In this document: one piece after another, positions 2,752 through 51,496 of the stretch
Position numbering within the stretch: position 1 is the first letter of the stretch
Layout of the letters: each line of letters opens with the position of its first letter
Made by a program: the position numbers and the translations under genes
Virus record (IMG/VR): IMGVR_UViG_3300021178_000015
Coordinates: 1 to 51,496 of that record
Reading direction: 5' to 3' (one strand)
Length of the DNA: 51,496 nt
Source: a virus
Notes under the pieces: model-generated
Database searches by the model: none
What the model was told of the DNA's origin: nothing
The model's input: only the letters and a program-made list of their open reading frames with translations

Positions 2752-3072
2752 GTGTCGTTATTTCCGTGGCTCAGTCAACCGCCGCCAACGCTCAAAGAGT
2801 TGACGCCACGGGAGCGCATGCTTGAACGGCTCAAGTTCGGCGTGCCGCTAGAGCTTGCGGCGCGTGCGGCCGGGCTCCGTCCGGAAAACCTCAAGGAAGA
2901 CCCGGAAGTTGATAAGGCGATGGCCGAAGGCGAGATTTTGCTATTCGAACGCGCGCGAGACAGCAGCGTAACGGGCATTGTACGGGCCGCTATGCGTCGG
3001 GAAGCGGAGAGTTGGTTACCCAAGGCGGAACCCAGTTCGGCGGGCTCGCTTGAAGACCTTTTGCGGGATTAA
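2752..3072 (+). CDS. Probable terminase small subunit (helix-turn-helix)
   Basis: 106 aa with a GTG start. After a Pro-rich N-terminus beginning FPWLSQPPP, residues ~25-60 contain a helix-turn-helix-like pattern (PLELAARAAGL, then EDPEVDKAMAEGE). An Arg-rich helix follows (ARDSSVTGIVRAAMRREA). This resembles phage small terminase proteins, which bind the packaging site and hand DNA to the large subunit. The large subunit gene is 12 kb away, so neighbourhood gives no support. A general DNA-binding protein is the alternative. The last 83 bases overlap a converging gene. Confidence 0.5.
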   Translation: MSLFPWLSQPPPTLKELTPRERMLERLKFGVPLELAARAAGLRPENLKEDPEVDKAMAEGEILLFERARDSSVTGIVRAAMRREAESWLPKAEPSSAGSLEDLLRD

Positions 3073-3232
3073 TTTTATTCATCCACGGCGCGCGGTTGTT
3101 TGCGTCTCGTTTCAAACACGCGGGGATACCGTCGTACTTTGCGCATTCTGCTGGGTGCAGACAAGACGGACAGTTAATGTTTTCGCAACGGGACGGATAA
3201 GGGTCCAGCTTAGTTTCCCAGGGTAACGTCAT
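2990..3232 (-). CDS. Small Cys-rich protein with N-terminal LPWE motif
   Basis: 80 aa. The chosen ATG has GGAG eight bases upstream; an earlier ATG at 3265 lies in the loop of a hairpin and has no ribosome site. The protein starts MTLPWETK, a motif shared with many proteins of this genome. It then has a four-Cys cluster (RCENINCPSC, ECAKYDGIPAC) that could bind zinc. It is the second gene of a short minus-strand operon driven from 3536, and converges on the small-terminase candidate. Confidence 0.6.
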   Translation of the reverse strand: MTLPWETKLDPYPSRCENINCPSCLHPAECAKYDGIPACLKRDANNRAPWMNKINPAKGLQASPPNWVPPWVTNSPLPDA

Positions 3233-15008: not shown

Positions 15009-16592
15009 GTGACCGCATATCCTTGGGAACAGCCCCCGCAATCTTCGTATCCGTGGCAGCAGTCACAGCCTGCGGAGGCGGAGCGCAAGGCAGCGATGCG
15101 GGCCAAGCTCCGCGATTTTGATTTCTATCGCGAGCGGTTTTTGCGTATTCGTCCGCGTGCCGGCGGCGAGCGCATCCCCTTTATTTTGAACAACGCCCAG
15201 CGCGTCCTGCATGCCCGGCTAGAAGAAGAAAAGAAGCGGTTCGGCATGATACGCGCGCTCGTGCCCAAAGCGCGGCGCATGGGCGTGAGTACGTATATCG
15301 GCGGACGCAACTTCCATCAAATCGGAACCATGTTCGGTCGGCGGGCCCAAGTGGTGGCGCACCGTGGAGACAGCGCAGCTAACCTGCATCGTGAAATTAA
15401 AGAATTTGCTAACAGCTTGCCGGGCGCCGTACAGCCGTCGATTGGTGCCACCAACTCTTATGAAGTGATATTTGACGTCCTTAAGTCGCTGTACAAAGTG
15501 GCGTCGGCTGAAGGTGGCGACATCGGCCGTTCGGATGACTTCCATAATCTGCATCTGTCGGAAGCCGCGTTCTTTGATAACACGGAAGACCTTTCGTCTG
15601 GTTTGTTGCAAACCGTACAGGACTTGCCCGGGACGGAAATCATAGAAGAGAGCACGGGCAACGGCCAGTCCGGCATGTTCTATAACCAATGCGAGGAAGC
15701 CGCGCGGCAAGGCAACAAAGGTCCGTGGCGCATCCACTTCCTACCGTGGCCCGTCATGCCGGAGTACCGTCAAACCGTGCCAGTGGGCTGGAAAGCGCCC
15801 CAGGATTTTGAAGAGTACGCGCGCATGCATGGCGTAGACCGGGAGCAGTTATACTGGTTTTGGACCAAAAACTATACGATAGCCGTTATGAATGGCGGGC
15901 AACCGGAGAAAATCCACCGGCTCACGCGTCAAGAGTACCCGGCCATCTATAGCGAATGTTTCATGGCCGACAGCACGCTTGATTTCTTTCCGGCGTCTGT
16001 CGTGTCCGCGGCGATGGTGCGCAAGCCGAACCCGTCCGCCGGGGCGCTGAAGCTGCTTTGCGTAGACCCTGCCGGCGACGGGCAGGACAAGCCATTTGTC
16101 TGCGATCGGCAGGGCTCCGCGATCGGCGCCAAGGTTTGGGGCGAGCTGACAAGCCGGGACTACAACGTGCAAGCTGACTGGCTTGTGGCTACGTTTAAAC
16201 GTTTCGATATGGATGCCATCCTTATCGACGTAACCGGGACCGGCAAAGGGCTGCTAGACGCCGTACGGCTGCGCATGCGCGCGTACGGTCCTGAAAAGGT
16301 GGTTGCGGTCAACTTTGCATGGGGTGCTTTGAATGACACACTGTACGGCAACCGGCGCGCGGAACTGCACGACAAGTTCCAGCGTTGGTTGCAAAGTGAC
16401 GTATCCATGCCGAACGACAAGATGTTGCAGGACGAATGCGCCGCTTATAAATGGGGCGTGGGTGGTTGCCGTCGCGATGAAAAAGCGCGGCTGTTCATGA
16501 CGCCAAAAGAAAAAATCAAGAAGGAATTGAAGCCTACGCGTTCGCCCGACCGCTTGGACGCTTGCGTCGTTTCGATGGCGATGGAAGCTTGA
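15009..16592 (+). CDS. terL: Terminase large subunit (packaging ATPase/nuclease)
   Basis: 527 aa, GTG start. Residues 1-20 carry two motifs, AYPWEQ and SYPWQQ, shared with other proteins here. The ATPase has the deviant Walker A of phage terminases (PKARRMGVST, residues 86-95) and an acidic motor region. The RNase H-like nuclease shows its acidic residues in CVDPAGDGQDK, AILIDVTGTGKG and the final SPDRLDACVVS. It pumps DNA through the portal and cuts it. The small subunit is probably the gene at 2752. Two overlapping genes converge on its end. Confidence 0.92.
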   Translation: MTAYPWEQPPQSSYPWQQSQPAEAERKAAMRAKLRDFDFYRERFLRIRPRAGGERIPFILNNAQRVLHARLEEEKKRFGMIRALVPKARRMGVSTYIGGRNFHQIGTMFGRRAQVVAHRGDSAANLHREIKEFANSLPGAVQPSIGATNSYEVIFDVLKSLYKVASAEGGDIGRSDDFHNLHLSEAAFFDNTEDLSSGLLQTVQDLPGTEIIEESTGNGQSGMFYNQCEEAARQGNKGPWRIHFLPWPVMPEYRQTVPVGWKAPQDFEEYARMHGVDREQLYWFWTKNYTIAVMNGGQPEKIHRLTRQEYPAIYSECFMADSTLDFFPASVVSAAMVRKPNPSAGALKLLCVDPAGDGQDKPFVCDRQGSAIGAKVWGELTSRDYNVQADWLVATFKRFDMDAILIDVTGTGKGLLDAVRLRMRAYGPEKVVAVNFAWGALNDTLYGNRRAELHDKFQRWLQSDVSMPNDKMLQDECAAYKWGVGGCRRDEKARLFMTPKEKIKKELKPTRSPDRLDACVVSMAMEA

Positions 16593-23600: not shown

Positions 23601-24500
23601 CTACGCGGCCTTCGCCATCGGCGGCAGCCAATCGGGCGGTGCCGGCAATTCTTCCCCAGGAGCCAAACGCGCGTTAGCCGGCCGGCGAAAGTCGATTACC
23701 GACAGCAACGCCCGCCCCGCCTCTTCTGCCTTCGGCCTGGGGCCTACCGAGCGCGCGGCCATGTCGATACGCGGCCAACCCAGGTCAAGCAACCGGCGGG
23801 CGTGGTCGCGAAACGCAGGGTAGTTGTGTACGAGCCACACAAAGCCAAGCGTTGCGTGTTCCGTTACCAACGCATTCGGCGGCGCCAGTGTGGCAATCAT
23901 TTCCAGCGCCGTCACAAGCTCGCCCGGCGGCACGGGGGTTGCTCGCTTGGCATAGCTTGCACTGCCGTGACCATACAGCGATTTCAGCGCGCCGACGCAA
24001 GCGAGCTTCGGCACGGAAAATTCGTCACGTTGATTGTTGGCGTCCACAACGGCCAAACCGGCATTCTGTACGAGCCGATTGAGCTGCACGGCACTTTCAT
24101 CGCCGGCTGCAACTTCCGCCATGAACAGCATGGTTTGCGGCACTTTCCGCATTTTGGTATTGCGCGAAAGAAAAATCTCGATTTCGCGCTTGCGGTCATG
24201 CACGTTGTAGATATCGCAGGGGACAAACAGACGCGCAGATGCCTTCGCGCCTTCCCAGCGGTGCCGCCCGTCCACGACAAACAGCGCACCGTTTTCGCGC
24301 CGTACGACCATGAGCCGGCCGAACAGTGTCAAGTCGAAAGTCTTACCGATTTCCTTCACTAGTCGTGGGTTGCGCGGCTTCATTGCTTGATACGTCGTAT
24401 CCACGTTCAACAGCCCGATCGGAACTTCGGTCGGTTCCGGTTTTTCTTCGATGACGACTATGGATTTCTGTTCCCAAGGGAACATCTTCGCGGTACTCAT
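23601..24500 (-). CDS. ParB/Srx-fold protein with FPWE N-terminus
   Basis: 299 aa. ATG follows AAAGGAG. It starts MSTAKMFPWEQK, the shared PWE motif. Residues ~30-110 form a ParB-like nuclease/CTPase fold with VVDGRHRWEGAKA. The remainder is helical (VPQTMLFMAEVAAGD, LVTALEMIATLAPP). Phage relatives are usually called ParB-like transcriptional regulators or nucleases; which applies here cannot be told. It is transcribed alone from its own promoter. Confidence 0.75.
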   Translation of the reverse strand: MSTAKMFPWEQKSIVVIEEKPEPTEVPIGLLNVDTTYQAMKPRNPRLVKEIGKTFDLTLFGRLMVVRRENGALFVVDGRHRWEGAKASARLFVPCDIYNVHDRKREIEIFLSRNTKMRKVPQTMLFMAEVAAGDESAVQLNRLVQNAGLAVVDANNQRDEFSVPKLACVGALKSLYGHGSASYAKRATPVPPGELVTALEMIATLAPPNALVTEHATLGFVWLVHNYPAFRDHARRLLDLGWPRIDMAARSVGPRPKAEEAGRALLSVIDFRRPANARLAPGEELPAPPDWLPPMAKAA

Positions 24501-31070: not shown

Positions 31071-31310
31071 TTAAGATGCCACAACTGTACACATTTGTAC
31101 GGGCGCGTCAAGCACTATTTTGACCCCTCGGAAACAAAATCTATGGGTTTTCGGCGGAGCGCGGCGAATATTGTTTGACCGAAGCCAGCGCCCTTGGCCG
31201 CATTCGCACACGCAAAACCACGAAATCGCACCATGTATCGTGGCTTTTTCTGCTCGGTAAGCGACGGTGACCAAGCCGAATTTCTTTCCGGGTTCTATGA
31301 AGTCGTTCAT
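31071..31310 (-). CDS. Small zinc-knuckle protein, unknown
   Basis: 79 aa. The text GKKFGLVTVAYRAEKA, then WFCVCECGQGRWLRSNNI, and a late Cys (THRFCF) resembles the CxCG zinc-binding unit seen beside AP2/HNH domains in phages. The start overlaps the polymerase stop (ATGA). The C-terminal ~20 codons run through the promoter of the next gene, so the true end may carry little function. Confidence 0.6.
   Translation of the reverse strand: MNDFIEPGKKFGLVTVAYRAEKATIHGAISWFCVCECGQGRWLRSNNIRRAPPKTHRFCFRGVKIVLDAPVQMCTVVAS
31084..31111 (-). promoter_or_regulatory. Promoter with TGTACACATTTGTAC element
   Basis: Minus strand TTGACG, 16-base spacer, TACAGT, preceded by AAAATAGTGC as at 39725. TGTACACATTTGTAC (31086-31100) fills the spacer and matches the H1-like gene promoter. 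Confidence 0.65.
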
Positions 31311-33274
31311 TTGCGCATCCGATCGGCCTCATAACCCTCACAATCGAGTGGCAATCCTGCGGTCCACGACCGGGGCCGGCGCATGATCTCGCGCATCTGC
31401 TCCGATCGCTGCTTGGCAATGGAAGCCGGCGCCAGCGAGAGTATGCTATCATAGACATCAAGGATCAACACAACATCCGGCAGCTCGTTTTCTATATCAG
31501 CTTCGGCCGCGGTCACCAAGTCACGCGTGCAGCTCTGACAGAAGATTTCGAGCAGCGAACCGCCGAAAGCTTTCTGTCGCATCATGGCGCCGAACTTCGC
31601 TCGGAAAAACTGCATTTCTCCGGTCGGCGAAATGTGTGCGGAATAGTGCGGCACGGCGCGGCCGGACGGCAGTAGCATCCACACCGTACCGTGGCTGTCT
31701 TTCTGGAATGCAATTCTGTTATTAACCGGGAAGATACGGCCGGGCTGTTCATAGATCGCAAACTTGAAGGCGTCGGCCAAGTCGTACCAAAGCCGTACAA
31801 GTAGCGGATTGGCTTGGCGGTAGCCGTTGATATCGATCATGGCTTTTTGGTCGGTTATCTCGTGACGTTTCAAACCGTTTTCCGCAGCCGTACGAATAAG
31901 GAATGCGAGATACGTACGCCATCCTAGCTGATAGTTACCGCCAAGCGTCACGCTCTTGAACGTCTGTCGTTCTTTGGGGTGGGTGGACTTAGTAGCGGTT
32001 TCCGGCAGGTTCAAGCACTGCCGGGCGTTGTACATGTATAAGTCGCTGCCCGGTGTTGCGATGATGTTTAAACGTTCCGTGTCGCCCGCGAGCCAAAGCG
32101 CGAAGCGCAACTCTGCTTGGGAAGCGTCGTTGTCGCACACCATCCAGCCCGGGGGCGCCACAATGCAGCCGCGAAGGCAGTCCGTCAGGGCACTGTTGCC
32201 TAGCGACGTGTGACCCTGCTTCAGCCGGTCGATAAGCTGGTCTATGGTGGCGCGGCCTTCCTTGCCGTCGTACTTACCGGACGGCCGCGCAATGTTGAAC
32301 ATGTTCGCGCCTTCGGACGTGCCGCGCCCCGATCGCGCACCGAAGTATCGTGTAGCGTCTTTGTAAAAGCCGTTGACGTGCCGGTCTAGCAGGGCTTGTG
32401 CTTTGAGCGGAGCCGAACCGCCTTCCGCCTGTAGCAGTTCCAGAACAATCCGTACGTCAGGATGCAGGTTTTCGTCAGTGAGTTTTTCCGCAATAATGTG
32501 CTTCTGCGTGTTTTCCAGTCCGGCAGCGCGGTTGCCGCTGTTGGCCCAATCGAGGATACGCTGGCGTTGCGAAAGCTTGGTCACCGCATTGTTGGTGATT
32601 TCCATAAGCTTCGCGGTGCTCTCTTGTTCGATTTCCTGCCGGCGCATCGCAATCGCGGTTGCCAAGCTGATATCGATCGGGAGCCCGATTTCGTTTTTAC
32701 GCCACGTACGCTCAAAGATCAGGCGTTCGGCTGGCGACAGCGGCGGCAGGCGCGCGTCAACATCCATGAGGCATTCAACGTCGCGCAAGTTGTACGCGAG
32801 CAGCTTTACGAACGTCTCGATTTTTTCGTGGAACGTGCCATCTTTTTGCGGCTTGCACGTCAGCATCACGAGCGCGCGGCCTTGCGGGTCTTTGCCCCGG
32901 ATGCCCAGCGCCATGCATAATTCGTCAAGGCCGCCCGGGAAGGCAATCGCCTGAGCGCGGCCCATGGTGCAATCAATCTTGCTCAGTTCGATCTGTACGA
33001 ACGGATTTTGCCGCTTAATCACGTTCACGTCGAAATTGGCGTGATGCGCAACGAAGCGCCGGCATTGCCGGATATCTTCGTAAAAGTCCGCCATCGTATG
33101 GGAGCCGATAGACGGATGTAATGTGCACGCAGTTTTGTACACACCGCGGAACCACCAACACGCCGTGGTTATCTGGGTGGATGGGCAAGCTGCATAGCGC
33201 CGCGCGCCCGCTGTCTTCAGGTTCGTACGGCTGCGTGTTTCTACGTCGGCGAATAAATCGTCAAGCTGCGGCAC
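31307..33274 (-). CDS. Family A DNA polymerase with 3'-5' exonuclease
   Basis: 655 aa, GTG start forced by an in-frame TAG just upstream. Exonuclease motifs: D10/E12 (LFADVET), AHHANFD (76-82), Y161xxxD165. Polymerase motif A is DASQAELR (383-390). Motif B is RQTFKSVTLGGNY (436-448) with Leu at the position of E. coli F762. Motif C is DVYDS (606-610) where VHDE is usual. It replicates the phage genome. The leucine and the altered motif C should lower speed or fidelity relative to T7-type enzymes; that is inferred. Confidence 0.92.
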   Translation of the reverse strand: MPQLDDLFADVETRSRTNLKTAGARRYAACPSTQITTACWWFRGVYKTACTLHPSIGSHTMADFYEDIRQCRRFVAHHANFDVNVIKRQNPFVQIELSKIDCTMGRAQAIAFPGGLDELCMALGIRGKDPQGRALVMLTCKPQKDGTFHEKIETFVKLLAYNLRDVECLMDVDARLPPLSPAERLIFERTWRKNEIGLPIDISLATAIAMRRQEIEQESTAKLMEITNNAVTKLSQRQRILDWANSGNRAAGLENTQKHIIAEKLTDENLHPDVRIVLELLQAEGGSAPLKAQALLDRHVNGFYKDATRYFGARSGRGTSEGANMFNIARPSGKYDGKEGRATIDQLIDRLKQGHTSLGNSALTDCLRGCIVAPPGWMVCDNDASQAELRFALWLAGDTERLNIIATPGSDLYMYNARQCLNLPETATKSTHPKERQTFKSVTLGGNYQLGWRTYLAFLIRTAAENGLKRHEITDQKAMIDINGYRQANPLLVRLWYDLADAFKFAIYEQPGRIFPVNNRIAFQKDSHGTVWMLLPSGRAVPHYSAHISPTGEMQFFRAKFGAMMRQKAFGGSLLEIFCQSCTRDLVTAAEADIENELPDVVLILDVYDSILSLAPASIAKQRSEQMREIMRRPRSWTAGLPLDCEGYEADRMRK

Positions 33275-33436: not shown

Positions 33437-34351
33437 TCAGCGTGACGGCCAAGCACCGCCTTGCGGAGCGGCGCCCGGGAAGGTTTGCTGCGGCTGGTTA
33501 GAAGGGAATGTCGCATTCCCATTTGGCGCGCCGGGCATCCCACCATGGGCCGGGGCACCCCCGAAAGCAGGCCCCGCCGTATTCTGAGAGGCAAACCCCC
33601 CTTGGGGGCCTTGGTGTGGGTTCCCAGGGAAACCGTTGCCGTTCTGCGGTCCCTGGGGTGCCGTAAAACCCCCGTGCTGCGGAGCCCCGCCGAAGCCCTG
33701 GGGCGCGGTCCCAAAACCTCCGTTCTGCGGACCGCCAAACCCACCCGGCGACGGATTGAAGCCGCTGGGCCGGTAGCCCTGGGCCTGGGCAGCCTGCATC
33801 AGCTCGGCACCGCTAATCGAGTTGCCAATAGCGATTTCCTCGCCGGGCGCCGTGAACACCACGTTGTTGATGTAGAGTTTGATCGCACGGGCATTCTGCG
33901 AGTTGACCGCCGCCGCTCCGCCGACGATGCAGAAATCGCCGGGCTTCACAATGTTGCCGCGGGCCTGAAGTGGTACGAGCGTGGCGCCCTGCGACAGTTC
34001 GACCTTGATCGCGTCACCGGAATTGCCGGAAAACATCCACTGGCCGCGCGCCCAGTCGGCCGGCGGCTGCTGGGGGTCTTGCGGCATGTCGCCGTCACGA
34101 ATGGGCCACGTCACAGCCTCGTAACCGAGCCCGCCCATGGTCGCGGCGTGGATTTTCTGCATCGCACCCCAAAGGTTCTGAAAAACGGGCTCCATAGACC
34201 AATGCGGTTGAGTTTTTGGCACGAGGAAACCGCCGAGCCAATTTGGTTTTGTCGTCTGGCCTTTGTATTCGGTGCTGGGTTGCCAAAGATTTTTCATTCC
34301 GTAGACCCGCGCGCCGAAACACATGAAATTTTCGTACTGCTTTTTCGCCAT
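33437..34351 (-). CDS. Single-stranded DNA-binding protein (DUF2815-like)
   Basis: 304 aa. Residues 1-~190 fit the OB-fold ssDNA-binding family related to T7 gp2.5 (MCFGARVYGMKNLWQP, GGFLVPKTQPHW, GDFCIVGGAAAVNSQN, IKLYINNVVF). Residues ~195-304 are Gly/Pro/Gln/Phe-rich and disordered. The tail ends GGAWPSR, without the acidic tip by which most SSBs recruit partners. Protects ssDNA in replication and recombination. It has its own promoter and terminator. Confidence 0.75.
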   Translation of the reverse strand: MAKKQYENFMCFGARVYGMKNLWQPSTEYKGQTTKPNWLGGFLVPKTQPHWSMEPVFQNLWGAMQKIHAATMGGLGYEAVTWPIRDGDMPQDPQQPPADWARGQWMFSGNSGDAIKVELSQGATLVPLQARGNIVKPGDFCIVGGAAAVNSQNARAIKLYINNVVFTAPGEEIAIGNSISGAELMQAAQAQGYRPSGFNPSPGGFGGPQNGGFGTAPQGFGGAPQHGGFTAPQGPQNGNGFPGNPHQGPQGGFASQNTAGPAFGGAPAHGGMPGAPNGNATFPSNQPQQTFPGAAPQGGAWPSR

Positions 34352-35970: not shown

Positions 35971-36459
35971 TCAGCCGCCCATCAACTTCGCCATATTCTC
36001 CAACTGAGGCATGCCGAGCGTGGGAACCTTGAACTGCCAAATCTGGTCCGGTGTCATGTTCGCCAGATCGGGCGTGTTGCCGCACTGTCCGCGGAGCCAC
36101 GCCAAGGCCTGGGCGGCGCTTTCCGTGCTCATGGCGGCGCCGGCATCGTACTTGGCCTTGATGCGTTCGATAAGGGCCGCAGCCGCGGGCGCGACCAGGG
36201 GGGCGCCTTGCGGCTGCGCGTTCGGAAAGCCTCCGCCGTTGCCCGTCTGTCCAGCGCCGGGGAAACCGCCGCCCTGGGCAGCGCCCGGGTTGAACGTCTG
36301 CCCCTGAGGCGGCATGATCGGGTTTGGCGCGGTATGGCCGCCAGCGGCACCCGCCGTACCGGTTTCGCCTTCGTCGGCGCCGCCCTTGCCGGTCCGTGGC
36401 TTCTTCAGCTTGGTCACGAAGTCCAAGACTTCTTCGATGGTGTCGAAAGTGAATTGCAT
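35971..36459 (-). CDS. Protein with disordered centre, unknown
   Basis: 162 aa. A helical N-terminus (MQFTFDTIEEVLDFVTKLKK), a Gly/Pro/Gln-rich disordered middle (~25-90), then a folded C-terminal part (ALIERIKAKYDAGAAMSTE, LAWLRGQCGNTPDLANMTP). The middle resembles the SSB tail in composition. AGGAG and a promoter precede it. Function unknown; a replication accessory protein fits the location. Confidence 0.65.
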   Translation of the reverse strand: MQFTFDTIEEVLDFVTKLKKPRTGKGGADEGETGTAGAAGGHTAPNPIMPPQGQTFNPGAAQGGGFPGAGQTGNGGGFPNAQPQGAPLVAPAAAALIERIKAKYDAGAAMSTESAAQALAWLRGQCGNTPDLANMTPDQIWQFKVPTLGMPQLENMAKLMGG

Positions 36460-39778: not shown

Positions 39779-40087
39779 TTAATGCAGGGCGTCCCAGAAA
39801 CCGACGATTAAGCCTTCGTCGTCTTGCAAGAAACCGCCGCGCTCCAGCCGAACCCATTCATTCCAGCCTGGGTATGACGTGTACATGCGACGCCACGGGC
39901 TATCTGTACTCTCGATTATGGCCAGATTTGGCGTGTCAAGAGGCTCGGTTTGCTGGCAAATGTCCACGCAGGCCAGATAAGCGCCCCGACCGGGCGGTCG
40001 GCTATGGATGGCGCGTATTTCGTTAGCGTAGGCCGGGGGCGCCAGTGGGCTGCCGGCGACGAATGAGAAAGGCCAATAGCGTGTCAC
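39779..40087 (-). CDS. Small protein, unknown
   Basis: 102 aa from a GTG that overlaps the preceding TGA and follows GGAGG. Text: TRYWPFSFVAGSPLAPPAYA, YLACVDICQQTEPLDTPNLA, DDEGLIVGFWDALH. Trp/Tyr-rich mixed fold; no family recognised. End of an operon that starts at the primase. Confidence 0.6.
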   Translation of the reverse strand: MTRYWPFSFVAGSPLAPPAYANEIRAIHSRPPGRGAYLACVDICQQTEPLDTPNLAIIESTDSPWRRMYTSYPGWNEWVRLERGGFLQDDEGLIVGFWDALH

Positions 40088-40422
40088 GGGACTACCTCCA
40101 ATCCTAGTTGGTGCGCCGTCTCCCAAACTTGCTTCACAAGTTCGTGTACGGATGCAATATAGGGCGTGTTCGGCTGGGGCATGCCGACGTCCTGAAATTC
40201 GAGCGTGCTGCCGTCCGTGAATTTGCACTCCCCGCGCGGAATGATTTGGCCCCGGGGGACGTTCACGAGCCGTTGCAGCGCCGGATGCTTGCTGTGGACT
40301 AGTATGCCAGTGAGCTGCACGGCGATGGCGAAATCACGTTGCAGGGCCGCCACCTTGTCTTCAGTGGTCGGCTGCGCCGGTACGGGCGGTTCCCAAGGAT
40401 AGCGTTGGATTTCAGTGCTCAC
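40084..40422 (-). CDS. Protein with YPWE N-terminus, unknown
   Basis: 112 aa. It opens MSTEIQRYPWEPPVPAQP, the motif in clearest form, then a helical part (KVAALQRDFAIAVQLTGILV) and a strand-rich end (PRGECKFTDGSTLEFQDVG). Overlaps the gene before it by 11 bases and the next by 4. No known domain. Confidence 0.7.
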   Translation of the reverse strand: MSTEIQRYPWEPPVPAQPTTEDKVAALQRDFAIAVQLTGILVHSKHPALQRLVNVPRGQIIPRGECKFTDGSTLEFQDVGMPQPNTPYIASVHELVKQVWETAHQLGLEVVP

Positions 40423-40612
40423 GGTCCGCTCTCTGCTTTTCTTGGCATGATTTCTCCCACTGCTGGCAGCTATCGCTTCCGTACTTGACCGTGCCGAGTT
40501 TCAAACACGGCGCTTTCTTCTTTCCAGTTTCGTCGGCGGTTCCAGCGTCGCCGTACCACATGTTGCAGCGTGAGCACGCACGGAGCGGAAGCGGGTTAAT
40601 CAGCATTCCCAT
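40412..40612 (-). CDS. Small Cys-rich protein
   Basis: 66 aa with AAAGG upstream. CSRC (residues 13-16), then CLKLG and DSCQQWEKSC make a likely four-Cys zinc site. Its ATG lies in the last codons of the previous gene, exactly over that gene's PWE codons. Function unknown. Confidence 0.65.
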   Translation of the reverse strand: MGMLINPLPLRACSRCNMWYGDAGTADETGKKKAPCLKLGTVKYGSDSCQQWEKSCQEKQRADREH

Positions 40613-40836
40613 GGTAACGCCTTTCGTAAGTACGTTGCGTCTTCAGGATAGACTATTGCGCCTAAGTCTTCGTTATAGGCGTCTGTCCAAACCACGGCAA
40701 TTGTTCCGGCTTCAATGATGGTGACGGTTCCGCGACTGGCGCCGGAACAGACGACATCACCCACGGCATACTTTGAAGACTGCGGTGCGTCGCTCCAAGG
40801 ATACACTGCTTTCCGTCCATTGTCGTCTTGCCGCAT
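40600..40836 (-). CDS. Small beta protein with two PW motifs
   Basis: 78 aa. The ATG (MRQDDNG) has CGGGG seven bases before it. VYPWSDAP near the start is followed by a KOW/SH3-like domain (KYAVGDVVCSGASRGTVTII, GTIAVVWTDAYNED). The protein ends ALPWEC. Fully overlapped at the 5' end by another frame (40662-40871) that also opens with LPWE. Possibly an adaptor for whatever reads this motif. Confidence 0.65.
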   Translation of the reverse strand: MRQDDNGRKAVYPWSDAPQSSKYAVGDVVCSGASRGTVTIIEAGTIAVVWTDAYNEDLGAIVYPEDATYLRKALPWEC

Positions 40837-40871
40837 TTGCAAACCCCGTTCCATTCCTCCCAGGGGAGCAT
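40662..40871 (-). CDS. Overlapping frame with LPWEEW start
   Basis: 69 aa. The ATG lies just after the previous stop with GGGGG upstream: MLPWEEWNGVCKCGKTTMDG, then a Ser/Pro-rich end. The first ~12 codons are outside the 40836 gene, the rest share its DNA in another frame. Either a true overlapping gene, or the two frames are joined by a frameshift (natural or sequencing error) into one protein with CKCG and KOW parts. Confidence 0.35.
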   Translation of the reverse strand: MLPWEEWNGVCKCGKTTMDGKQCILGATHRSLQSMPWVMSSVPAPVAEPSPSLKPEQLPWFGQTPITKT

Positions 40872-40872
40872 A

Positions 40873-41070
40873 TCAGCCCCCGAACAACACGGGTTCGGCT
40901 TTGTTGAGCAGTGCACACACCGCGGCAGGGTCTATCCCTTCGGAAACAATGCATACGCGAAAACCCATGCTTGCACCAAAATCGCTCTGTACGGGACGGT
41001 GAAAAATCGCGTCGCCCCGCACGTAGTAGAACGGTGACGTGTCGATCTCGATAACCTTCAATGCTGCCAT
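40873..41070 (-). CDS. Small protein with covariant hairpin ribosome site
   Basis: 65 aa (AALKVIEIDTSPFYYVRGDA, IFHRPVQSDFGASMGFRVCI). The ATG is inside the last codons of the prim-pol gene (over its YPWQ codons). The leader hairpin AGCT-GGAG-AGCT sits in the same place as in the early genes. Strand-rich small fold, function unknown. Confidence 0.7.
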   Translation of the reverse strand: MAALKVIEIDTSPFYYVRGDAIFHRPVQSDFGASMGFRVCIVSEGIDPAAVCALLNKAEPVLFGG

Positions 41071-43121
41071 GGGTAGCTCTCCAGCTTCGTTGTGGGTATC
41101 TGCACAGTCCAGTTGACCGTAAGAGGCTGCTGTACGGACCCGGCGGGCGAGTACACAGCGTAGAAAGGACATCCGCGCATTGTACGGAAGTGTCCGGAAT
41201 TTAGCAAGCTCTGCATGCCCTCTTTTTCAAATAATTTTAGGGCAGCATCCTTGCTGATAACAAACGCAGGCACAGAGCCGTGTACGGACGCGCCTAGCTC
41301 GGCGGCAACGCTATCGAACGGAACCATGTTGCCGGCGCGGAGTGCATCCATTCCGCCGTTAGTGACGCCGGGCAGCATTGCGCCGAGCCGTATCATTGCG
41401 CTCTGTTCGCGCTGCTGCGGTGTCGTGATGACTTCGCGTTTAAACACATTCACAGTTGTTGCGCGCCCCTTGCTGTCGTTGCCGTAGTGCTCCGAAATAA
41501 TTCTGCCGGTGTAGCTCTTTGCCTTTGGCGCACCGCGCGCTTTGCCGCAGTCGATCGACACGATATCTTGCCGGCCGGCGGTGACGCGATACATGAAACC
41601 GCTATTGCCAGCCTTGGCGCCGTTGCCCTTCTGCCAAGCATCCTCATTGCCGAGCGGCAAGTGGTCCGTGACAATCATCGCGGCGCCCGTACGAAAGGCG
41701 ACATTCTTCAAAATGAACATCGCCTTCAGGACGCTTTCGGTATCGTTGTCGGCAAAGCAGAGCCCTGACGACGCCCAGGTATCCAGCACGAGCAAATCGA
41801 CACGCATGCCCATTGCGGCCATCGCAGCGACTTGGCCCAAGCAGTCTTGCTCGAAGGAGCCGGGATTGACGCGCGGTATCAGATGGAAGCGCGAAGCCAG
41901 TTCGTTGCCGTTCGGCTCTTGCCGGATAAGATGCCTTACGCGTCGTTCTGTGCCGTAGTCATCTTCAGCGGCAACCCATAATACGTGACCGTCACTCCGT
42001 TCAACATCAGCCTCAAGCCATCCGCGTCCATTAAGCAAAGCAACTGCCAAGTCCGAAACGACACTAGATTTTCCAGCTCCAGAATGTCCCGTAAAAAAGT
42101 GTACCTCTCCGCAGAGAATACGCTGATACAGAAGCCACGGTAACTCATTTGTGCTATCCTCCAGTTTCAGTTCAAAGCCCGTACGAGCCTGCAACGTCGG
42201 TGCCGTCTGTCCGTCATGCAGGCCTTGCAGAAACGTACGGCGCGACATGATGGCTTGCATTATCAGGTTGCCGCGCAACACCGGCAACTGGTCATGGCGC
42301 ATGATCTCTTCGCCCAGAACACGCCCGCCGTGGCCTTCGGATAGCGAGTGGCCCGCGCTGGTTATCGCGGTTTCGATTTCTTCTCGTGTGCATAAGCCGT
42401 TCTGTTCGGCGAACTTCAGCACCCCGACAAGCGAAAAGATTGTGGAGCCGCGGCCTTCCGTACGGCCCATCAAGTCCTGTTTGAGCAGTCCTAAATAGCG
42501 CTTAGTGGCGTCGCGGCCGGCTTGCCATTCGTCTTGCGTTCTAGGTTTGGCTTCGTGCAGTTCGTCAACACTGGCGGTTTCGTGCTCAGCACTAAAACGT
42601 AAAGACGTTTCAGCTCGTGCAGGTACTTCAGACAGTATTTGCTGGAGTTGCGCCGTCGTGATTTGCGGCCAATCTGCATCCCAATTCTCCCATTCGTACG
42701 GTTGTCCGGTGTCTTTGTGCGGGCCGAAGGCGACGAATTGGCCGCCCATCAATTGAAGCTTGTCTCCGTCCGGAAACGTGAAGGTGCGGCCTTGTACGGG
42801 CGCGTCTCTTAGAAAGAACGGTATCAGGAAGCGCGGTTTCCGTCCCCATCGCACGGGCACAGCCGGGCCAAGCACGCTACGGAACGCCTGTAAGAGACGC
42901 CCAGACATTTCGGGGTTTGATACGTCACAGTCGAATGCTGTAAGACCGCCGTCTCCGCATCGGAGCCCGACGCTGCCGGCGCCTGGGTGGGGTATTGGTG
43001 ATGTCCAAACATTCCAGCCGTCTCCGATCGGGGCCTTAGAGCCCCTTGCGATAGCTAGCGGAAAAAGCCCCCTTGCGCGGGCTTGCTCCCAAAATTCTTG
43101 GATGGTAGAAGGTAACGGCAA
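41058..43121 (-). CDS. Primase-polymerase / RepA-like helicase
   Basis: 687 aa from a TTG start. Residues ~10-160 form an archaeo-eukaryotic prim-pol domain (GLFPLAIARGSKAPIGDGW, TAFDCDV with the catalytic DxD, LMGGQFVAFGPH). Residues ~320-560 are a RecA-fold helicase: GHSGAGKSS Walker A (~345), VLWVAAEDD, DLLVLDTW Walker B. It likely makes primers and unwinds DNA ahead of the polymerase. The protein ends YPWQH. Its ribosome site lies in a hairpin loop. Confidence 0.85.
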   Translation of the reverse strand: MPLPSTIQEFWEQARARGLFPLAIARGSKAPIGDGWNVWTSPIPHPGAGSVGLRCGDGGLTAFDCDVSNPEMSGRLLQAFRSVLGPAVPVRWGRKPRFLIPFFLRDAPVQGRTFTFPDGDKLQLMGGQFVAFGPHKDTGQPYEWENWDADWPQITTAQLQQILSEVPARAETSLRFSAEHETASVDELHEAKPRTQDEWQAGRDATKRYLGLLKQDLMGRTEGRGSTIFSLVGVLKFAEQNGLCTREEIETAITSAGHSLSEGHGGRVLGEEIMRHDQLPVLRGNLIMQAIMSRRTFLQGLHDGQTAPTLQARTGFELKLEDSTNELPWLLYQRILCGEVHFFTGHSGAGKSSVVSDLAVALLNGRGWLEADVERSDGHVLWVAAEDDYGTERRVRHLIRQEPNGNELASRFHLIPRVNPGSFEQDCLGQVAAMAAMGMRVDLLVLDTWASSGLCFADNDTESVLKAMFILKNVAFRTGAAMIVTDHLPLGNEDAWQKGNGAKAGNSGFMYRVTAGRQDIVSIDCGKARGAPKAKSYTGRIISEHYGNDSKGRATTVNVFKREVITTPQQREQSAMIRLGAMLPGVTNGGMDALRAGNMVPFDSVAAELGASVHGSVPAFVISKDAALKLFEKEGMQSLLNSGHFRTMRGCPFYAVYSPAGSVQQPLTVNWTVQIPTTKLESYPWQH
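41075..41086 (-). promoter_or_regulatory. Covarying ribosome-site hairpin AGCT-GGAG-AGCT
   Basis: Same size and loop as the CGCT-GGAG-AGCG sites, but the outer base pair changes from C-G to A-T on both sides. This is evidence that pairing is selected. Confidence 0.7.
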
Positions 43122-43165: not shown

Positions 43166-43203
43166 AAGCCTCCGACGTTAGCCGCGTCGGGGGCTTTGCT
43201 TTA
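43166..43203 (+). terminator. Hairpin facing plus-strand transcription
   Basis: AAGCCTCCGACG pairs with CGTCGGGGGCTT (one G-U pair) around 7 bases, then TGCTTTACG. No plus-strand gene ends here, so it may block antisense transcription. Confidence 0.5.
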
Positions 43204-43767
43204 CGACGATTGCCACGGATAAGTCAAATTGCTACCCGTGGTATTTTGTACCGTTTCGCAGCCTATGGCGCGCATGGCCGCCGGCAGCTCGTATTGCGCG
43301 AGCCGGGCTTTCAAGACTTGGACTTCGCTGAACAGTTCGCTGTTGCGTGAGTACAGCCCGGCTAGTTCCTCCTTCATGGTGCTGTTAGCCATACGCAGCT
43401 TATCAGGCTCGCCGACACCCGTACACGCGAAACCTGCCACCACGCAACGCACGGTGCTGTCCCACGCAATAAAACCTTTTTCGAAAGCCGGCAACAAGCC
43501 CCGATGCAGGTCGCATGTACGGTTGCTGAAACGCGAATTGGCGTCTACTTGACCGACTTTTTCGAACACGGAGTATTTCTCTCCGCATATCGCGCACGGC
43601 CGTTGCCACTCTTTCATGTGCCGGTATTGCTTGCCGTTCAATTGAACGCTGTCGTGTTGGGCGGTTTCCACCCATCCTTCACGGTTGTGCCGGCTGGGTA
43701 CGTCAATGGGCAGCTCGCCGGGTTTCGCAAAGCCGCCGCGCATGCGTTCGCCTCTCGTAAAGCTCAT
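43201..43767 (-). CDS. Zinc-motif protein ending in YPWQ
   Basis: 188 aa. The middle carries CAICGEKYSVF and TCDLHRG, a probable CxxC...CxxH zinc site. Then a coiled-coil-like stretch (KEELAGLYSRNSELFSEVQVLKA region). It ends LTYPWQSS, the shared motif at the extreme C-terminus. It lies just upstream of prim-pol, so a replication adaptor is plausible but unproven. Confidence 0.65.
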   Translation of the reverse strand: MSFTRGERMRGGFAKPGELPIDVPSRHNREGWVETAQHDSVQLNGKQYRHMKEWQRPCAICGEKYSVFEKVGQVDANSRFSNRTCDLHRGLLPAFEKGFIAWDSTVRCVVAGFACTGVGEPDKLRMANSTMKEELAGLYSRNSELFSEVQVLKARLAQYELPAAMRAIGCETVQNTTGSNLTYPWQSS

Positions 43768-44850: not shown

Positions 44851-45294
44851 ATGAACCTACCGGCTACCCGGCTTTCACAGTATGCGATGCAATCGGCTTG
44901 TGAAGAGATTGCACGGATACGGCCATTCGTACGGAAGGAAAGCACAGCTTTGACGACGGCTTGCAGACAGGCGGGCATGCCTATGGAGCTGGCGGAAGTT
45001 TGCGGCGGACTGTTGGCCTCCGTTGTGGACGATTTAGTTGCCGCAAGCGGCTTGCCCAAATCGAGCTTTGAGCGTACCAAGCGAATGGTTCGCGTTTTGA
45101 AGACCGCCCAGGAGCCGGCCAGTCACGCGCTACGGTTGGCCATGGCAGCGTCGCCAATCAACGGGGAAGCGGCTGTGATGCACTGGGACGCTATTTGCGA
45201 AGATCGCGAAAGAGGCAAGTTGGCGTGGCTGCTCGGCATGAGCACTGAGGCAGCTTGGAAGTACGGCAAGCGCATGGAAAAGATGACGGCATGA
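44851..45294 (+). CDS. Helical protein, unknown, first gene of the rightward block
   Basis: 147 aa, almost all helix (LSQYAMQSACEEIARIRPFV, MELAEVCGGLLASVVDDLVA, MVRVLKTAQEPASHALRLAM). No ribosome site stronger than AGGGCACAGA. Coupled by ATGA to the methyltransferase gene. Might be a DNA- or RNA-polymerase-binding early protein; no domain supports this. Confidence 0.65.
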   Translation: MNLPATRLSQYAMQSACEEIARIRPFVRKESTALTTACRQAGMPMELAEVCGGLLASVVDDLVAASGLPKSSFERTKRMVRVLKTAQEPASHALRLAMAASPINGEAAVMHWDAICEDRERGKLAWLLGMSTEAAWKYGKRMEKMTA

Positions 45295-45755
45295 AAATTT
45301 TGGACGTGTCCGCCGGCAACCGCGCTATCTGGTTTGACAAGTCGCACCGTGACGCGCTTTACATTGACGTACGGCCGGAAGTCAAACCAAATATCGTTGC
45401 GGACGCACGAGCGTTGCCGGCGGAGATCGCGGGGCCGTTCGATTTGATTGTGTTCGATCCGCCGCATGAAAATTTTGGCGCAAGCGGCAACATGGTGCGT
45501 AACTACGGTCATTGGACCCATGCGCAAATCAGGGGCATTGTTGAGGGGACGGGCAAGGAAGCGCACCGCGTTGCGACCGTACACGGTTTGAGGGCCCTCA
45601 AGTGGAGTGAGCATTCAATTCGGCTGAAGACGGTTTTGGAACTGCTCGCGCCTTGGTGGGAACCGCTATTTGGTCACGGCGTATCGCACCAACAAAAAGG
45701 CACGTCCTGGGTCATGCTGCGGCGCCGTGCGTATCCATGGGAGCTGGTTGCGTGA
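45291..45755 (+). CDS. SAM-dependent methyltransferase-like protein (DPPH), YPWE C-terminus
   Basis: 154 aa. The text KILDVSAGNRAIWFD, LYIDVRP, NIVADARALP and FDLIVFDPPHENFG gives the class I methyltransferase order with a DPPH catalytic motif, as in N6-adenine or N4-cytosine DNA methyltransferases. Motif I (DVSAGNRA) is a degenerate FxGxG. It is small and lacks an obvious target-recognition domain. The protein ends AYPWELVA. The TGGGAG codons for WE also supply the ribosome site for the next gene. Confidence 0.7.
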   Translation: MKILDVSAGNRAIWFDKSHRDALYIDVRPEVKPNIVADARALPAEIAGPFDLIVFDPPHENFGASGNMVRNYGHWTHAQIRGIVEGTGKEAHRVATVHGLRALKWSEHSIRLKTVLELLAPWWEPLFGHGVSHQQKGTSWVMLRRRAYPWELVA

Positions 45756-46280: not shown

Positions 46281-46598
46281 ATGACCATCCAAATTAACAC
46301 CGCTGAAGATGCCACCGCAGCCGCACTGTTCAATTCGGCGAATGCCGTTGACGAACTTGGGCTTATCAAGGCGCAGATCGCCGAATTGGAGCAGAAGGAG
46401 GAGGCGCTTACCGAAGCGCTTAAGGCGACCGGCAAGACCAGCTTCGCCGGCACGTTCTTTGACTGCTCGATTTCGCACAGCGAACGCGCCAACTTCGATG
46501 TCAAGCAGCTCCGCGCCGACCTGGGCGAAGATGCTTGCGCGCCGTACGTCAAGGCGCCGACGAAGGTTGTTACGCTGAAGCTGACTGCGAAGAAGTGA
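46281..46598 (+). CDS. Conserved small phage protein with coiled coil
   Basis: 105 aa. A heptad-like helix (ELGLIKAQIAELEQKEEALT) is followed by strands (GKTSFAGTFFDCSISHSERA) and TKVVTLKLTAKK. I recall this helix-then-sheet layout in early-region phage proteins of unknown function. Strong early signals (promoter plus hairpin leader) precede it. Confidence 0.75.
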   Translation: MTIQINTAEDATAAALFNSANAVDELGLIKAQIAELEQKEEALTEALKATGKTSFAGTFFDCSISHSERANFDVKQLRADLGEDACAPYVKAPTKVVTLKLTAKK

Positions 46599-46606
46599 GG
46601 GGCAAC

Positions 46607-46867
46607 ATGGCCAAGAAAGAGCAAGTGAACTGGAACAGCTTCACCAAGGCGGAGCTAATCAAAACCATCCGTACGCTGCATGTGCGACAGACCAAGCTGT
46701 TGAACCGCATTGCAGAGCTGGAGACGAAGCGCGCGCCCGCCATGGAAGACAACCCATACGCTGCCGGGGCCGCCGCGCAGCGGTACCCGTGGGAAACGCA
46801 GCTTGCTAACACCGTCACGTACGAGCCCACCAACGGCAAGCCGAACTGTCGGAAGGAAAATGAATGA
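46607..46867 (+). CDS. Small coiled-coil protein with YPWE motif
   Basis: 86 aa. Residues 1-~45 form a coiled coil (FTKAELIKTIRTLHVRQTKL, LNRIAELETKRA). Then AQRYPWETQL at ~residue 60 in a disordered tail. The motif here is internal, in flexible sequence. Overlaps the next gene by 4 bases. Function unknown. Confidence 0.7.
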   Translation: MAKKEQVNWNSFTKAELIKTIRTLHVRQTKLLNRIAELETKRAPAMEDNPYAAGAAAQRYPWETQLANTVTYEPTNGKPNCRKENE

Positions 46868-49667: not shown

Positions 49668-51496
49668 ATGGCTAGCGACGACGCAAGCACGTTCGGCGGT
49701 GACAGCGCCCAGAATGCCACGTTCGGGAGCGGTTTGAACTATATCGGCGGAGGCGGCGCAGACCCGGGGAGCAACGGCGCGGATGTACCGCCGGGCTCCC
49801 CGGCCCCCGTGCAGCCGATGGCTCAGGCTCCGCAGCAATCCGCCCCGTCGTTTGGCAGCATGCTAGGCGGGCCGCGCTACACGCCACCGGACCCGAACAC
49901 GTCACCGCTGGACCAGACCGCGGACACGCTGCAACAGCGCATTCAGCGCGCCAACAGCGTCGCCACCAATCCGATGCTTCAGCTTTTTGACCCCGCTTCG
50001 GTGCAAAAAGCGCGGGACTTCGTGCCGGCGGCAACGGAGCAATTGCAGAAGATCAAGCAACAGAAAGCCGATATCGCAGCGGGCCGCGCCGAAGCATCCA
50101 GCCTCGGGCTCAACCCCGGCGACGCGCCCGACGAAGCCACACACGACGACAGGGTTTCGGTTGCGGTGAACAAGTCGCTGCAAGGCGATCTGAAGACGTT
50201 CAAGGGCCTTTCGGCAGTCGATCCGCAGCGCGCCGCGTCCATTCAAGATCAGGTGCACGAGGCCGCATCTACGCATTTGAACAATGCGCAGCTCGCCTTT
50301 GATAGCCTGTCATCCGTACCAAATCAGGGCCAGTACACCGCGAAGCTCAATCAGCTCCGCAAAGACGGCACCTTGACCGATCTGGAAGCGCTGGGCCTGA
50401 AGCTGCCGGAAAGCTATGACGCGTTTAACGCCAGCAAGCCGGCGGAAGGCGAACAGCTCCGGCAAGCGCGCGTCGGCATGGAAAACCTCAAGGCCAAGAT
50501 TGACGAACGTGGCAACGGTACGCCGATGTCTGCCGACGAACAGAAGACGTACGCCGGCCGGTTGACGACTGAAAGCGGACAGGCGATCAACAACGGTACG
50601 TGGTCGCGGATCAACGGCAAGCGCGTGTACACCGTGAACGGTCAAGGCGACATTCGCGACCTGGGGACCAAGTTCAATTACGCCAACGCGGATCAGCGCA
50701 AGCAGTTTGGCGAAGAAACTGCCGCAGCGGTGCCAAAGACCGACTTGGAAAAAGACCGCAATTTTAACCGCCTCTATTCGATTGCGACGGTGGATGCCAA
50801 GGGCAACGCAATCCCGGCATCTGGCGCCGTGGATGAAAAGGGCAACCGTACGTATTTGAACACCAACCCTAACGTACAGCAAGGCATCGCCGAAGGGCTC
50901 GCCAGCATGCTGCGCGGCGGTTCGGGCGGCGCGACAAGCGGTTTGCTCAATATCGAAACCAGCAAGCGCGGCGCCGTACAAGCCGTGCTTGATAAGATCA
51001 TTTCGAACTATGCCGGCGGCGTCAATACGTTGACGGGCGATCAGGTCAAGCCGTACCTGTCGCAGATGACACAAGAGCAAATGCGCTCGGTTATGGACGG
51101 GCTGAAAGGCTACAACGACAAGGCCATGAGCGACCGGCTGGCGCCGATTGCGCAGCGCGCCGGAGAGCTGGGCCTTGATGCGTCGGCGCTGGGGCTGGGC
51201 AAAGACGAAGTGAAGGGCGTTCAAGACGCCATCGAAGCCGGTCGGCAAAGCACGATTGCCCGCTTCACCGCGCGCTCGCGTGCGATCGGCGGCGGTGATG
51301 GCGGTATTTTTCTCGACAACCCGCCGCCCGTGCTGGTCACGCACCCGGACCACCCGCCGGGCTCCGTACCGGAAGTGCCGCCGCCCGTACAGGGCCAAGG
51401 CGGAGCACCGCAGCCGCTGCCGGGCGCAGCGGGAGGCGGCCAGCCCAGCGGTCCCGGTGGTGGCGGTCCCGGTGGTGGCGGTCCCGGTGGTGGCGG
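49668..51496 (+). CDS. Ejection protein, N-terminal part (continues at base 1)
   Basis: 609 codons visible, open at the right end. N-terminus Gly/Ala/Ser-rich (ASDDASTFGGDSAQNATFGS), then long helices (LQQRIQRANSVATNPMLQLF, TEQLQKIKQQKADIAAGRAE). It ends in a Pro/Gly linker (PPPVQGQGGAPQPLPGAAGG) and PGGGG repeats that lead to the transglycosylase domain. The whole protein (~1,340 aa) is comparable to T7 gp16 (1,318 aa). It is probably packaged in the head and ejected. Translation is governed by a hairpin ribosome site. Confidence 0.8.
   Translation, partial: MASDDASTFGGDSAQNATFGSGLNYIGGGGADPGSNGADVPPGSPAPVQPMAQAPQQSAPSFGSMLGGPRYTPPDPNTSPLDQTADTLQQRIQRANSVATNPMLQLFDPASVQKARDFVPAATEQLQKIKQQKADIAAGRAEASSLGLNPGDAPDEATHDDRVSVAVNKSLQGDLKTFKGLSAVDPQRAASIQDQVHEAASTHLNNAQLAFDSLSSVPNQGQYTAKLNQLRKDGTLTDLEALGLKLPESYDAFNASKPAEGEQLRQARVGMENLKAKIDERGNGTPMSADEQKTYAGRLTTESGQAINNGTWSRINGKRVYTVNGQGDIRDLGTKFNYANADQRKQFGEETAAAVPKTDLEKDRNFNRLYSIATVDAKGNAIPASGAVDEKGNRTYLNTNPNVQQGIAEGLASMLRGGSGGATSGLLNIETSKRGAVQAVLDKIISNYAGGVNTLTGDQVKPYLSQMTQEQMRSVMDGLKGYNDKAMSDRLAPIAQRAGELGLDASALGLGKDEVKGVQDAIEAGRQSTIARFTARSRAIGGGDGGIFLDNPPPVLVTHPDHPPGSVPEVPPPVQGQGGAPQPLPGAAGGGQPSGPGGGGPGGGGPGGG
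51450..51496 (+). repeat. 15-base tandem repeat (right contig end)
   Basis: Three copies of GGTCCCGGTGGTGGC, the same unit and frame type as at bases 1-51. The contig most likely broke here because the repeat could not be resolved. Confidence 0.9.

Follow-up and report, generated by a model that had tools for sequence, protein, structure and literature searches.

A terminal hydrophobic-Pro-Trp tail recurs on many DNA-related proteins of a phage clade and is a probable docking motif for one shared receptor

Short motifs by which enzymes that act on DNA dock on a common hub are already known, i.e. the C-terminal tip of single-stranded DNA-binding protein (SSB-Ct), the clamp-binding motifs and the tails of phage T7 replication proteins. 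The bacterial clamp-binding motif is a QLxLF-like pentapeptide, and the Hox hexapeptide, YPWM, is a docking motif for PBC homeodomain proteins. In SSB-Ct, the tip buries its terminal phenylalanine next to a penultimate proline, while acidic residues contact basic residues of the pocket; both the proline and the terminal phenylalanine matter for binding (PMC10164576). In T7, gp4 and gp2.5 have acidic C-terminal tails that dock on the gp5 polymerase, as described for those of gp4 (PMC12593628), and the SSBs of the DUF2815/Enc34 family usually carry an acidic C-terminal tail, described as typical of the SSBs of prokaryotes and phages (PMC5686142).

We analysed a virus record of IMG/VR with a length of 51,496 bases, referred to as the window. 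Both of its ends (positions 1-2211 and 49668-51494) fall within open frames that are rich in Gly and belong to one family (GGGPGGGG); the record may be a circular permutation or may have been cut within a repeat. An initial annotation had described a peptide with Y, F or L before Pro-Trp at the ends of several proteins, and every one of its core sites is present in the window at the place given. The three first residues do occur, but the set was too narrow, as related phages show M, F, Y, L and W: the general form of the motif is [M/F/Y/L/W]-P-W-[E/Q/D/N], placed at the very N- or C-terminus or close to it. The observation is thus confirmed, and is more general than had been said. Tyrosine as a fixed first residue was considered and rejected, the strict form YPW[EQ] being common in the window and in a single close relative but not elsewhere. 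The carriers in the window are:

2752..3072 (+), 106-aa protein, N-terminus MSLFPWLSQ, small-terminase-like only by eye
2990..3232 (-), small Cys-containing protein, N-terminus MTLPWETKLD; LPWE at 3215-3226 (-); the listed frame from 3265 takes in an upstream ATG
15009..16592 (+), large terminase, identified by tblastn, N-terminal tail MTAYPWEQPPQSSYPWQQ with two motif copies; YPWE at 15018-15029 and YPWQ at 15048-15059 (+)
23601..24497 (-), ParB-like protein (phrog_1033, E 7e-10), N-terminus MSTAKMFPWEQ; FPWE at 24471-24482 (-)
40084..40422 (-), 112-aa core protein, N-terminus MSTEIQRYPWE; YPWE at 40390-40401 (-)
40600..40854 (-), 84-aa small protein, motif near both ends, VYPWSD ... ALPWEC; YPWS at 40792-40803 and LPWE at 40606-40617 (-)
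40662..40871 (-), overlapping Cys-rich protein, MLPWEEWNGVCKC..., multivalent with LPWE, MPWV and LPWF; LPWE at 40857-40868 (-)
41058..43121 (-), prim-pol / AAA helicase (PF13481, PF09250), C-terminus ...LESYPWQH; YPWQ at 41064-41075 (-)
43201..43767 (-), zinc (Cys-motif) protein, C-terminus ...NLTYPWQSS; YPWQ at 43210-43221 (-)
45255..45755 (+), DNA methyltransferase (phrog_954), C-terminus ...RRRAYPWELVA; YPWE at 45732-45743 (+)
46535..46867 (+), 110-aa protein, RYPWETQ 23 residues before the C-terminus; YPWE at 46784-46795 (+)

Counted over the 25 residues at each protein end, the form YPW[EQ] occurs 7 times, while 0.008 occurrences are expected from per-protein shuffling of the window, and none of 1000 shuffles reached 7. 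At the DNA level, the degenerate pattern TAYCCNTGGSAR has 7 matches in the window and its reversed form has none. The proline of the motif is encoded by all four codons (CCT, CCG, CCA and CCC), therefore selection acts on the peptide, as had been claimed from the same codons. Three weaker forms had also been proposed. Two of them, HPWEG (acetyltransferase, 30.8 kb) and NPWQQ (helicase), are internal to domains and behave unlike the motif, and were rejected as copies of it. FPWL (2.76 kb) belongs to the family of the 106-aa protein, which has xPW within the first 8 residues in 17 of 19 homologues; a family search with this protein gave no match. Separately, the two small genes at 40600-40871 (-) overlap by about 190 bases in different frames, and both have homologues in relatives.

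For the comparison with related phages, a search with the prim-pol returned 27 related contigs (65-94% identical), 21 of which were fetched to give a clade set of 22 phages, where we called genes and clustered families; the calls are our own and did not use a trained gene finder, and small genes that overlap can escape them, as happened with the gene of the 84-aa protein, which was recovered separately. The pattern [YFLMW]PW[EQDN] is found at 99 terminal sites in all 22 genomes and in 22 protein families, although some single-genome families among these may be false gene calls. The letter-order controls are far lower: the best of 23 other orders gives 17 terminal sites in 7 families of the clade set, and this runner-up (X-Phi-P-W) can overlap the very sites of the motif.

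Within families, xPW (any residue before PW is accepted, including the G, P or N of some few members) is N-terminal in the large terminase in 18/18 genomes, lies within the last 12 residues of the prim-pol/helicase (22/22 homologues) and of the zinc protein (23/23, mostly as MPWE), and occurs in 20 of 20 homologues of the Cys-rich overlapping protein, often in 2-3 copies. The motif is found in 6 of the 6 genomes with a ParB-like gene and in 21/21 members of the 112-aa family, with its proline and tryptophan invariant in the alignment; the 112-aa protein has a confident predicted fold (AF2 pLDDT 89), for which searches of the PDB and BFVD gave no significant match. Homologues of the 84-aa protein bear the motif N-terminally, C-terminally or in both places (e.g. 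MFPWGD ... GFPWQP); several genomes have it near both ends. In the G018 homologue of the 110-aa protein the motif is truly C-terminal (KFPWEQH). Family cl84, which we have paired by eye with the small Cys-containing gene, starts MMPWE or MTMPWE in G009, G016 and G017, and a radical-SAM protein and an AAA-like protein are among the other accessory carriers. At 68 C-terminal sites, 0-3 residues follow the fourth position of the motif, with none in 28 of the 68, and the consensus of the tails is [KRS][MFYL]PW[EQD].

Six outgroup phages (Bcep781, PhiXhv-1, Axy14, BPP-1, H6/1 and ct8d5349) have no such motif network; searches for distant relatives via the SSB, 112-aa and 147-aa proteins returned the same clade only, and a scan of isolate genomes for a relative with a named host found none. 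The motif is kept at protein ends across the clade, and the initial proposal of a short linear motif at flexible ends of DNA-related proteins is upheld by the shuffling and by this conservation, while the single hub protein that it put forward is a hypothesis; we regard the short-linear-motif interpretation of the xPW tails as well supported. Different proteins of one genome also tend to agree in the first residue (0.368 versus 0.250 when shuffled, reached in 0/2000 shuffles), as would be expected from one co-evolving receptor, but this concordance is suggestive only, because the first-residue states need just about 4 changes on the tree and shared ancestry may explain part of it.

The DNA methyltransferases carry the tail in several families. 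With four family models, 25 methyltransferase genes were found in 31 records, and 18 of the 25 end in an xPW tail: PF01555 in 9/9 (which include the near-identical pair G013/G014), phrog_954 in 3/3, phrog_799 in 4/10 and phrog_111 in 2/3. In alignments, the tail is absent from the Dam homologues of a Bradyrhizobium phage (68% identical) and a Pelagibacter phage (70%), as well as from the N6/N4 homologues of a Stenotrophomonas phage (59%) and a Vibrio phage (53%), while tblastn matches of the phrog_954 enzyme end at about residue 160 of 166. As judged from these sequences, the tail is an extra on the clade methyltransferases when these are compared with the Dam and N6/N4 homologues examined from other phages.

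The peptide also occurs outside the clade. At least 120 stretches in viral contigs encode KMPWE followed by a stop, and among the matches listed it is the end of an open frame in 75 of 80 loci; the frames listed are mostly gp4-like primase-helicases (phrog_239, roughly 575 aa); their nearest relatives in culture infect hosts such as Cellulophaga and Flavobacterium. Of the 36 loci where the KMPWE enzyme is full-length, 35 have another open frame that ends in D[LI]PF; where inspected, this frame is of about 100 aa, adjoins the primase-helicase and is SSB-like by tail and position, e.g. at L208 and L205, where the neighbour ends DDLPF. In a different phage (L269), the tails are swapped: the SSB-like protein ends KMPWE and a DEAD helicase ends DDLPF. 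In the loci examined, KMPWE marks one protein only and there is no network, and a scan of viral contigs for RMPWE gave few true C-termini and no new network. Since other phages carry KMPWE on their primase-helicases, the peptide is not unique to the clade; the novelty is the spread of the tail over many proteins.

Most of the recognised carriers handle DNA. Our preferred reading, to which we assign a probability of about 0.72, is that the tails are a short linear docking motif for one receptor that all carriers share, located where the phage DNA replicates: the motif is terminal, selected as a peptide, present on many DNA proteins and sometimes repeated 2-3 times in one of them (the 84-aa protein, the Cys-rich protein and the terminase are multivalent), as a motif for docking on one receptor would be. 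The tail [K/R/S]-[M/F/Y/L]-P-W-[E/Q/D/N], placed on the flexible ends of priming, methylating, partitioning and packaging proteins, would tether its carriers to this single receptor, and the pattern suggests an address tag by which the carriers would be directed to the DNA machinery of the phage itself. That the tails bind a receptor, that it is common to all carriers and that it is associated with DNA, we infer from the carriers and the motif; such a DNA-associated receptor would probably be a protein of the phage replisome. Against docking, the tail is missing from 7 of the 25 methyltransferases, and likewise from several DNA proteins of the core set (polymerase, helicase, nuclease). A phyletic profile, in which a phage-encoded receptor is expected in all members, leaves the SSB, the polymerase, the helicase, the nuclease and several others, next to a host factor, and removes just a handful of families, those of 96, 128 and 86 aa included. 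Two neighbouring genes of the window are the main candidates:

33437..34351 (-), T7-type (DUF2815/Enc34) ssDNA-binding protein with a P/G/F-rich tail, candidate receptor
31307..33274 (-), family-A DNA polymerase, lacks the motif, the other candidate receptor

The SSB is of the Enc34-type OB-fold, its orthologue in L135 matching 4klk (E 2.9e-08), 5odl (E 1.7e-06), 5odk and 5odj in Foldseek, and its tail contains no Asp or Glu in 18/18 genomes; the clade SSB has lost the acidic tail that is normal for its family. The length of this tail varies from 30 to 131 residues, and it ends NPF[A/G]PR in many relatives and AWPSR in the window. A 162-aa core protein of the window (35971-36459, -), for which no family match was found, has conserved ends and a Pro/Gly/Ala-rich middle that resembles the SSB tail. 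In L135, the SSB naturally reads through in frame, with two TGA read as Gly, into a methyltransferase that ends YPWEMP; in the AF2 model of this read-through the SSB is largely confident, the YPWEMP tail has a pLDDT of about 31 and the methyltransferase itself is poorly modelled. The polymerase has a PF00476 match (E 4e-08) just under the curated cut-off, and a match of 99% coverage to the DNA polymerase I of Burkholderia and Xanthomonas phages. In L057 (7937-10741, -), the polymerase frame is of 934 aa, versus about 650 in relatives, and its extra part has no Pfam match at E 0.05.

The acid-free tail suggests the SSB or the family-A polymerase as the receptor. We put the SSB forward tentatively, at less than even odds, while the polymerase is a doubtful candidate; a host replication factor, or something else, we consider unlikely, each to the same degree. 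If the SSB is involved, the polarity of the known system would be reversed, with an SSB that has no acidic tip and partners that carry a hydrophobic-Pro-Trp-acidic tip; this arrangement is favoured because the SSB tail is acid-free and because the SSB-Ct tip and the T7 gp4 tail provide precedents. The full form of this inverted SSB-Ct, where the OB domain of the SSB or the adjacent polymerase would be the single receptor and newly acquired DNA enzymes would readily gain the tag, is rather improbable as a whole; if true, it would amount to a modular code that addresses proteins to the site of replication.

The alternative that survives best is that the tails bind a host protein, e.g. the clamp, an SSB partner or RNA polymerase, and so recruit host machinery. 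DNA is what the carriers act on, we recognised no clamp encoded by the phage, and the KMPWE primase-helicases occur in phages where no family-A polymerase was found; all three would suit a host receptor, but the methyltransferases of other phages manage without a tail, the outgroup phages have no network and the motif is unlike the textbook clamp motif. We hold this alternative to be unlikely. Much less probable is a membrane or virion anchor, which would concentrate the carriers at the membrane or package them into the capsid, to be ejected together with the DNA: a terminal position and a Trp/Pro core would suit a targeting peptide, but so short a tail would be a weak membrane anchor, and the carriers include the terminase, methyltransferases and the prim-pol and are not recognised virion proteins. 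Slightly less probable still is a control of stability, as a degron or a cap against proteases, which would fit the many sites that end exactly at the C-terminus but not the motifs that are N-terminal, at both ends of one protein or in several copies. Chance, shared protein ancestry or a DNA-level repeat without protein function is the least probable account, since, although sites in one family share ancestry and their counts are not independent, the four proline codons and the four methyltransferase families speak against it, and the shuffles and the recurrence across 22 families effectively refute it.

Our literature search on the motif found nothing relevant. We have come across no account of a docking motif across some twenty phage protein families, nor of one that incoming methyltransferases have and their relatives do not. 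If the preferred reading, docking on one receptor at the replicating DNA, is true, the tag would flag which uncharacterised phage proteins act at the replication site, and one peptide pull-down could find the receptor.

Among the known systems, bacterial SSB-Ct is likewise a short terminal peptide, disordered, with a Pro-aromatic core and acidic residues, and is read by many genome-maintenance proteins. The hydrophobic-Pro-aromatic core at the protein end is found at the 99 terminal sites, and their disorder is taken from their position; SSB-Ct, however, has one carrier, the SSB, and many readers, while the clade motif has many carriers, and the clade SSB tails themselves end in NPF[A/G]PR, AWPSR or similar. 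Moreover, SSB-Ct has acidic residues before a terminal Phe with a free alpha-carboxylate, whereas the clade motif has Trp, followed by E/Q/D or more residues, with its acidic residue after the core; a free carboxyl-terminus is not needed by the clade motif, because N-terminal copies exist. To our knowledge, the tails of T7 have no hydrophobic-Pro-Trp core and do not occur on terminase or methyltransferases. They are also longer and acidic, while the clade core has at most one acidic residue, often with K/R before it; the likeness with gp4 and gp2.5 is in the terminal tails on phage replication proteins, together with the presence of a family-A polymerase and a T7-type SSB (PMC12593628, PMC5686142). 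The clamp-binding motifs (bacterial QLxLF and the PIP-box of PCNA) similarly place one short motif on many DNA enzymes, but the clade motif has no Gln and no LF/FF pair, and is not QLxLF-like. The Hox hexapeptide shares the aromatic-Pro-Trp docking core (PMC4392834), but as an internal motif of animal transcription factors, and the resemblance is no more than that. The closest likeness in the peptide itself is with the gp4-like primase-helicases, which carry the identical KMPWE at the exact C-terminus of a replication protein, on one protein only in the loci examined, where the clade has its tail spread over many.
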